DNA of 64,000 nucleotides, taken from contig JAOAEQ010000010.1 of NCBI GenBank assembly GCA_026416715.1, forward strand, positions 36,002 to 100,001. The letters are read 5' to 3'. The position numbers were made by a program, and so were the translations under genes. The stretch's first letter is position 1; each line of letters begins with the position of its first letter. Shown here piece after piece: positions 40,837-44,246 of the stretch. Origin of the DNA: a bacterium (GTDB lineage: Bacteria; UBP4; UBA4092; JAOAEQ01). Under the pieces are notes generated by a model, which was not told the origin of the DNA, ran no database searches, and saw only the letters and a program-made list of their open reading frames with translations.

Positions 40837-41013
40837 ATGGAAAAATTATTAACGACAAAAGAAGCAGCAGAATATTTGCGGTTTAATCCACGATATTTAA
40901 CTCGATTGGTTCGTGAAGGTAAAATTCCGGCTCGTAAAATTGGACATGAATGGCGGTTCCGGATGGATTTATTAGAAAAATGGGCGTGGAGCGACCGACC
41001 ATCTAACAATTGA
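40837..41013 (+). CDS. Excisionase/MerR-type helix-turn-helix DNA-binding protein (58 aa)
   Basis: The 58-residue protein begins MEKLLTTKEAAEYLRFNPRY and continues RLVREGKIPARKIGHEWRF. This is the winged-helix excisionase-type HTH (helix_turn_helix 17 family), with the usual KxGxxWRF wing. AAGGAG precedes the ATG by eight bases. Proteins of this family are either small regulators or recombination directionality factors. No integrase or phage gene is near, so a regulatory role is more likely. It stands alone behind a sigma-54-like promoter and points toward the minus-strand lysine-peptide unit. Confidence 0.88.
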   Translation: MEKLLTTKEAAEYLRFNPRYLTRLVREGKIPARKIGHEWRFRMDLLEKWAWSDRPSNN

Positions 41014-41068: not shown

Positions 41069-41100
41069 AAAAAAAAACCGCGCAAAATTGCAGCGGTTTA
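41069..41100 (-). terminator. Terminator of the lysine-peptide unit
   Basis: On the minus strand AAACCGC pairs with GCGGTTT, with a small inner GCAA/TTGC stem, and the right arm runs into a tract of nine T. It ends a transcript of about 145 nt that begins at the promoter at 41222-41250. Confidence 0.8.
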
Positions 41101-41149
41101 CTTTCACTAAAAAATACTCACAAATAAGTTCATTTAGTTCTTTTCGAAC

Positions 41150-41188
41150 TTATTTCTTTTTTTTCTTTGCTTTCTTTTTCGCTGCCAA
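41150..41188 (-). CDS. 12-residue lysine-rich microprotein, TTG start
   Basis: The frame TTG...TAA encodes MAAKKKAKKKKK. A 15-base AAAGGAGGTTGATCC, almost the full complement of the 16S rRNA 3' end, lies three bases upstream of the TTG. The ATG upstream (ATGAAAGGAGG) is stopped after three codons, and an in-frame TGA lies two codons before the TTG, so no longer reading is possible. A consensus promoter (41222-41250) and a terminator (41069-41100) frame it. The product resembles the lysine-alanine tails of histone H1-like proteins, so nucleic-acid binding is an inference. The transcript may also act as RNA by pairing with 16S rRNA. Confidence 0.65.
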   Translation of the reverse strand: MAAKKKAKKKKK

Positions 41189-41221
41189 GGCGGATCAACC
41201 TCCTTTCATTTAACTACAATT

Positions 41222-41250
41222 ATATTAGACGTAAAAAAATGTTTTGTCAA
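41222..41250 (-). promoter_or_regulatory. Consensus promoter of the lysine-peptide unit
   Basis: On the minus strand TTGACA (41250-41245), a 17-base spacer and TAATAT (41227-41222) make a near-perfect sigma-70/A promoter, among the best in the window. Transcription would start near 41215, giving a leader of about 27 bases that contains the long Shine-Dalgarno sequence. Confidence 0.8.
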
Positions 41251-43012: not shown

Positions 43013-43099
43013 TGGTGCCGAAGCGGGGAGTTGAACCCCGACGAGGTTGCCCTCACTAGAACCTGAATCTAGCGCGTCTGCCATTTCCGCCACTCCGGC
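43013..43099 (-). tRNA. tRNA-Leu (anticodon CAG)
   Basis: The minus-strand sequence folds as a class II tRNA of 87 nt with encoded CCA (43015-43013). The acceptor stem GCCGGAG pairs with CTTCGGC, including one G-U. The anticodon stem CTAGA/TCTAG carries loop TTCAGGT with CAG in the middle. The variable arm (TGAGGGCAACCTCG) is long, as expected for leucine, and the T arm has GGTTCAA. It reads CUG leucine codons. Confidence 0.97.
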
Positions 43100-43894: not shown

Positions 43895-44246
43895 GGGGGT
43901 GAACTGGGTTCGACAGTAATCGAGGGCGGATAAATGGCGTGTCGAGTTTTCTCCCAGCTCGATAAAACGGGAGAAACAAATAGTCGCAAATCAAGAACTC
44001 GCATTAGCTGCCTAATTGCGTAGCTACGTCTGACAAAGTTTCCCTATCAGCTTTGTTAAGGCGTCATCAAGATAGGGGTAGCAATTAATCTTTGCTAGAT
44101 GGATTAATTGCGAATTGATAATCTAGCTAGCAACAATCACACCCGTCTGAGGTAACGATTGTTGTGAATTTAAAAATCAGACTACACACGTAGACATTTA
44201 CCGTACTGATTATTGGACGCGGGTTCAATTCCCGCCACCTCCACCA
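43895..44246 (+). ncRNA. ssrA: Transfer-messenger RNA (tmRNA)
   Basis: The 352-nt RNA begins GGGGGTGAACTGGGTTCGACAG and ends in a tRNA-like T arm (GGTTCAATTCC) with CCACCTCCACCA. The 5' GGGGGTG pairs with 3' CACCTCC to form the acceptor stem with one G-U. The internal reading frame follows AGTC. The molecule rescues stalled ribosomes and tags the unfinished protein for proteolysis. It lies just after smpB, so the partners are probably co-expressed. No clear terminator follows. Confidence 0.97.
43986..44015 (+). other. tmRNA proteolysis-tag reading frame (ANQELALAA)
   Basis: The resume codon GCA (43986-43988) follows TAGTC, as in E. coli. The frame reads Ala-Asn-Gln-Glu-Leu-Ala-Leu-Ala-Ala and ends at TAA (44013-44015). 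With the alanine brought by tmRNA the tag is AANQELALAA, one residue shorter than that of E. coli and ending in the LAA degron read by ClpXP-type proteases. Confidence 0.9.

Follow-up and report, generated by a model that had tools for sequence, protein, structure and literature searches.

A probable stand-alone micropeptide gene for a 12-residue lysine-rich product, its paralogue and look-alike genes in other bacterial families

The window, a 64,000-nucleotide stretch of one contig of the bacterial genome G000, harbours, within about 180 bases of its minus strand, a gene with strong signals whose product is a lysine-rich peptide of 12 residues and which is almost certainly genuine. The reading preferred here, with a probability of roughly 0.55, is that of a stand-alone micropeptide gene, one of two paralogues, whose product would be a disordered polycation binding nucleic acid, ribosomes or polyphosphate. 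The elements of the unit, together with the neighbouring gene, are the following:

41222-41250, minus strand: promoter with -35 box TTGACA (41250-41245), 17-base spacer and -10 box TAATAT (41227-41222)
41192-41206, minus strand: very strong ribosome-binding site, AAAGGAGGTTGATCC, beginning about 9 bases past the predicted transcription start
41150-41188, minus strand: TTG-started micropeptide gene of 12 codons, product MAAKKKAKKKKK (TTG at 41188-41186, TAA at 41152-41150)
41069-41094, minus strand: intrinsic terminator, a GC-rich hairpin (41094-41077) followed by nine T
40837-41013, plus strand: convergent neighbour, context outside the unit, encoding a 58-aa HTH_17 / excisionase-type DNA-binding protein (PF12728, E 1.6e-15; TIGR01764, E 4e-13)

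The promoter, the lysine frame of 12 codons with its TTG start and the terminator with nine T had been proposed in an earlier note on this DNA and were all recovered at these positions. The reading frame (TTG GCA GCG AAA AAG AAA GCA AAG AAA AAA AAG AAA TAA) translates into M-A-A-K-K-K-A-K-K-K-K-K, in which 8 of the 12 residues are lysine, none is acidic and the end is formed by a lysine run. Promoter-like sites around the unit are unremarkable when taken alone (5 in 1.1 kb against 5.1 in shuffled sequences) and terminator-like sites in the region number 2 against 0.7 in shuffles; a promoter, AGGAGG and a short closed frame are found together a single time in the window and never in 12 Mb of matched third-order Markov sequence. 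With these signals RNA polymerase would start about 26 bases ahead of the TTG, ribosomes would load at the strong site and produce the peptide, and the short mRNA would stop at the terminator. A scan of the window against Rfam at gathering score gave matches to tRNA and tmRNA only and to no family at the unit; the tRNA-Leu(CAG) (43013-43099) and the tmRNA (tag ANQELALAA, 43895-44246) are situated 2-3 kb from it.

The near-full complement of the 16S rRNA 3' end described in the earlier note stands as regards its strength but not its continuity. The pairing is exceptional, -22.2 kcal/mol compared with -15.4 for the strongest site among 89 ORFs of at least 200 codons in the vicinity, energies calculated with an assumed canonical 16S tail, the 16S gene being missing from the G000 assembly (nor was it found in G001, a genome of the same class). 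The complement is discontinuous, consisting of 9 pairs, one bulged T and 5 more pairs, and the site stands at normal spacing ahead of the micropeptide frame. When inspecting other long Shine-Dalgarno sites in G000 the best matches were found 8-14 bases ahead of ordinary genes, and all four remaining combinations of a promoter with AAAGGAGG precede long reading frames; the long ribosome-binding site is therefore the strong end of an ordinary initiation signal. Long pairing with the 16S tail is likewise used for initiation by the extended Shine-Dalgarno genes of Staphylococcus aureus, which differ in belonging to another organism, where many ordinary genes and small ORFs use such sites (PMC13009471). 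In E. coli a six-base ribosome-binding site outperforms longer ones, so that extension is not always better (PMC2176067).

Genome G000 (2.96 Mb) carries one further copy of the gene, on another contig (G000:C4:66801-66930), with the product MAGKCCGAKKAPKKKKK. This paralogue has the promoter TTGACA-16-TATGAT, the ribosome-binding site AAAGGAGGTGACCCGCC, a TTG start, a K5 tail and a terminator with an 11-pair hairpin and T6, and its frame reads TTG GCA GGA AAG TGT TGT GGT GCT AAA AAA GCT CCA AAG AAA AAA AAG AAA TAA. The two copies align at the promoter, ribosome-binding site, start, tail and terminator, and an in-frame 15-base indel separates their frames. The cysteines of the paralogue could, speculatively, add a metal- or redox-dependent partner. 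Its ribosome-binding site pairs with the assumed canonical 16S tail at -21.1 kcal/mol, and each copy breaks the 16S complement at a point of its own (a bulged T; mismatches) while the frame and the K5 tail are kept.

These breaks bear on the RNA reading of the earlier note, taken here to mean that a short transcript is itself the product, capturing or parking 30S subunits through its long 16S complement, and that the peptide is incidental. Such a role agrees with the exceptional pairing in both copies and with a ribosome-binding site near the 5' end of the minimal transcript, but it predicts a conserved continuous complement, which neither copy has. Moreover, the sites of the look-alike genes described below are ordinary to strong with a shorter complement, long sites in G000 mostly precede normal genes, and it is the peptide that is indicated by the in-frame indels and the broken A-runs. 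Capture of 30S subunits is very unlikely.

The paralogue precedes rpmH and is co-oriented with it, having rpmH-rnpA on one side and a divergent gene for a PAP2-type membrane protein on the other (PAP2 and rnpA named by sequence inspection). This position, and a short lysine-rich frame followed by a terminator, would suit the leader peptide of a lysine-sensing attenuator; however, rpmH has a promoter-like site of its own, the other members found are mostly monocistronic and lie in unrelated genomic places, and for the window unit the idea is contradicted by the convergent HTH_17 gene standing where a co-oriented downstream gene would be needed. An attenuator is thus extremely improbable. A mobile-element reading was rejected as well, since the genome has only two copies and the surroundings of the unit showed no convincing terminal inverted repeats.

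Pattern searches and inspection of the site upstream of rpmH revealed neither the unit nor its paralogue in G001, the sole same-class genome compared, which belongs to a different family. This absence, and the AT-richness of a region in which A-runs give lysine codons, would be expected of an A-rich intergenic stretch that resembles a gene by chance or of a decaying duplicate. Against this stand the failure of the architecture to appear in the simulated sequence, its two copies in one genome and the members in G086, G267 and G402, which are of the same kind and written mainly in AAG codons, and an origin by chance or decay is highly improbable.

The earlier note had proposed to search related genomes for the arrangement of promoter, Shine-Dalgarno sequence, lysine frame and terminator; genes resembling it were found in genomes of other families. 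A peptide pattern in which TGGC had to follow the start returned the own copies and three chance-like matches only, a scan for the 18-base ribosome-binding site over genome contigs gave four matches, all unrelated, and a DNA similarity search of 60 genomes found the own paralogue alone, the remainder being A/T-rich noise. When the TGGC form was relaxed to GGAGG, a start, a lysine run and a stop, accepting only in-frame tiny ORFs, other look-alikes were found. The relaxed patterns, two of which also catch many unrelated gene ends, revealed 18 more genes of 11-27 codons with a terminal lysine run in 12 other genomes from eight families, giving, with the window unit and its paralogue, 20 genes in 13 genomes and nine families. 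A reversed-pattern control of the first relaxed search gave 0 matches in 386 genomes.

Two types of product can be distinguished. The plain type comprises MPAKKKAAKKKKK in G267, G428 and G429, MATKKKAVKKKAAKKKKK in G206 and MATKKKAKKKKKK in G402 (both with a TTG start), MKKKATKKKKKK together with MKKKAAKKKKK in G086, MATKKKAKKATKKKK in G021, MATKKKKAKKKK in G424 and MAKKKKAKKKK in G422. The Cys type is represented by MACKKKAKKKKK in G423, MACKKKVKKKKK in G427, MSCGKCGKKKAKKKKK in G285, MCKNCGCGVNKKKKKK in G424, MCKTCGCGLKKKKKK in G422 and the 27-residue MACAKKPAKKVVKKAVKKVVKKTAKKK in G267, which has relatives of 27 residues in G429 and of 16 residues in G428. In G428, G429 and G267 (loci L267, L268 and L269) two tiny lysine-rich genes follow one another behind a single TTGACA promoter, and in G428 the leading gene is 36 bases shorter, in frame. 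Most look-alikes have a terminator hairpin directly behind the frame and several have a TTGACA promoter. Their ribosome-binding sites pair with the 16S tail at -11.8 to -19.6 kcal/mol, a range biased upward by patterns that require GGAGG and a lysine tail; with such patterns the eight other families are a minimum.

Sequences this short and simple do not prove common ancestry across the families; lysine-rich tiny frames are of low complexity and could arise repeatedly. We propose tentatively, at slightly less than even odds, that these genes form a common and so far undescribed bacterial class of stand-alone, strongly translated genes for peptides of 11-27 residues with a lysine tail, often paired (plain and N-terminal-Cys), whose products would act as genetically encoded polyamine-like or metal-carrying peptides. 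Searches of Pfam, NCBIfam and PHROGs gave no family match, the Pfam and NCBIfam profile searches being made with the longest chromosomal member, and short strings from such peptides had no match in the literature searched. A simple DNA pattern suffices to find the proposed class.

Synonymous changes that keep the peptide, which the earlier note had named as support for a coding role, were seen between same-genus members of other genera (GCC/GCT, TGC/TGT, GGT/GGA and GTG/GTC, together with a TAG/TAA stop swap), as were deletions that leave the frame intact, one of 3 bases (G422/G424) and one of 36 bases (G428 compared with G267/G429). In G000, G422, G424, G423 and G427 the longest A-runs measure 5-8, even though 84-91% of the lysine codons are AAA (P 0.002-0.105 each; 0.04 for the window unit), and in G021, with 69% AAA, the same test gave P 0.19; it assumes local codon usage, and the P values per gene were kept separate, as neither paralogues nor members of one genus count as independent. 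Robust ribosome sliding is reported at 11 A in a row and little of it at 9 or 10 (Koutmou et al., PMC4363877); the AAG codons hold the A-runs of the AT-rich members at 8 or less, under the sliding length. Constraint at the protein level is thus direct in other genera, and for the window unit it comes through the paralogue and the A-run test. Together, the synonymous and in-frame changes and the AAG-broken A-runs support selection for a faithfully translated peptide, and with the frame-keeping paralogue and the look-alikes they give good support to the tiny, strongly expressed basic peptide that had been the other reading of the earlier note.

Short A-runs also fit poorly with the idea that translation itself is what matters, the lysine run slowing or stalling ribosomes and serving as a Lys-tRNA sensor or a ribosome sink with the peptide as a by-product, as the placement of AAG reduces sliding. 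Consecutive lysines are translated slowly (PMC4363877) and the window unit is only ~2.7 kb from the tmRNA gene, which may be chance, but there is no gene downstream to regulate and the terminator of the window unit faces a convergent gene. Such a role is unlikely.

As for the preferred reading, a made and functional peptide, eight lysines and no acidic residue lead one to expect a disordered product with affinity for polyanions (RNA, DNA, ribosomes, polyphosphate), in the manner of a minimal histone-H1-type tail; this is judged from composition. The histone-H1-like proteins AlgP, PhaF (in its tail) and chlamydial Hc2 share the Lys/Ala-rich disordered tail, which the 27-residue MACAKKPAKKVVKKAVKKVVKKTAKKK resembles, although AlgP and Hc2 are far longer, repeat-bearing proteins, unlike the micropeptides. 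For AlgP, the comparison studied best, DNA binding was seen with Lys/Ala-rich peptides from its tail, and the protein is associated with granules of polyphosphate (PMC9239181). The longest chromosomal member matched no model of an H1-like or nucleoid protein in Pfam or NCBIfam. The high net positive charge would also suit a cationic peptide that is secreted or acts on membranes, as an antimicrobial or a signal, instead of an intracellular binder, but the peptide has neither a signal peptide nor a hydrophobic face and no export or modification gene was recognised directly adjoining the unit; this alternative is very unlikely.

In being intergenic, tiny and unannotated and in having its own signals, the gene resembles the intergenic microproteins surveyed in Enterobacteriaceae, some of which also have TTG starts (PMC11188072). 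That survey covered genes of 15-70 codons, whose products were mainly hydrophobic or unstructured, whereas the window peptide is encoded by 12 codons and basic throughout. Genes of 11-18 codons are below the usual annotation cut-offs, many of them also under the 15-codon limit of that survey. If the peptides are made, many lineages encode a tiny polycation with a possible action on nucleic acids, ribosomes or polyphosphate.

The Cys-type members of G424 (L130, 2672-3091, minus strand) and G422 (L131, 2654-3070, minus strand) are located between a tRNA-like sequence and hypA-hypB. Directly before these genes the micropeptides (MCKxCGCG...KKKKKK) carry CxxCGC, the same motif as the N-terminal nickel motif of HypB, whereas HypB at these two loci begins MSEI(D/E)IFENI and has no CxxCGC; the motif therefore seems to have a small gene of its own there. 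It differs from the motif of HypB in sitting on a detached, lysine-tailed peptide, and the window unit has neither cysteine nor adjoining hyp genes. These members suggest that some of the peptides carry a detached metal site.

The strict pattern of the window unit found no match in viral contigs. Relaxing the pattern brought up many lysine-rich phage frames of 18-25 residues, for example MAKKKKAKKKKKKAKAKKKKKR (L163, L196, L199, L141, L148, L206, L157 and others), several of them just ahead of a similar gene (MKKxDRYNYV...VPSVTTIL...). They were left out of the class because they are embedded in runs of phage genes. A glutamate control pattern gave 10 tiny frames compared with 36 for the lysine pattern (80 viral contigs each). 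On one viral contig (L155, 731-775) a Cys-type micropeptide, MGCGAKKTKKKKKK, follows GGAGGTGATTTCA.
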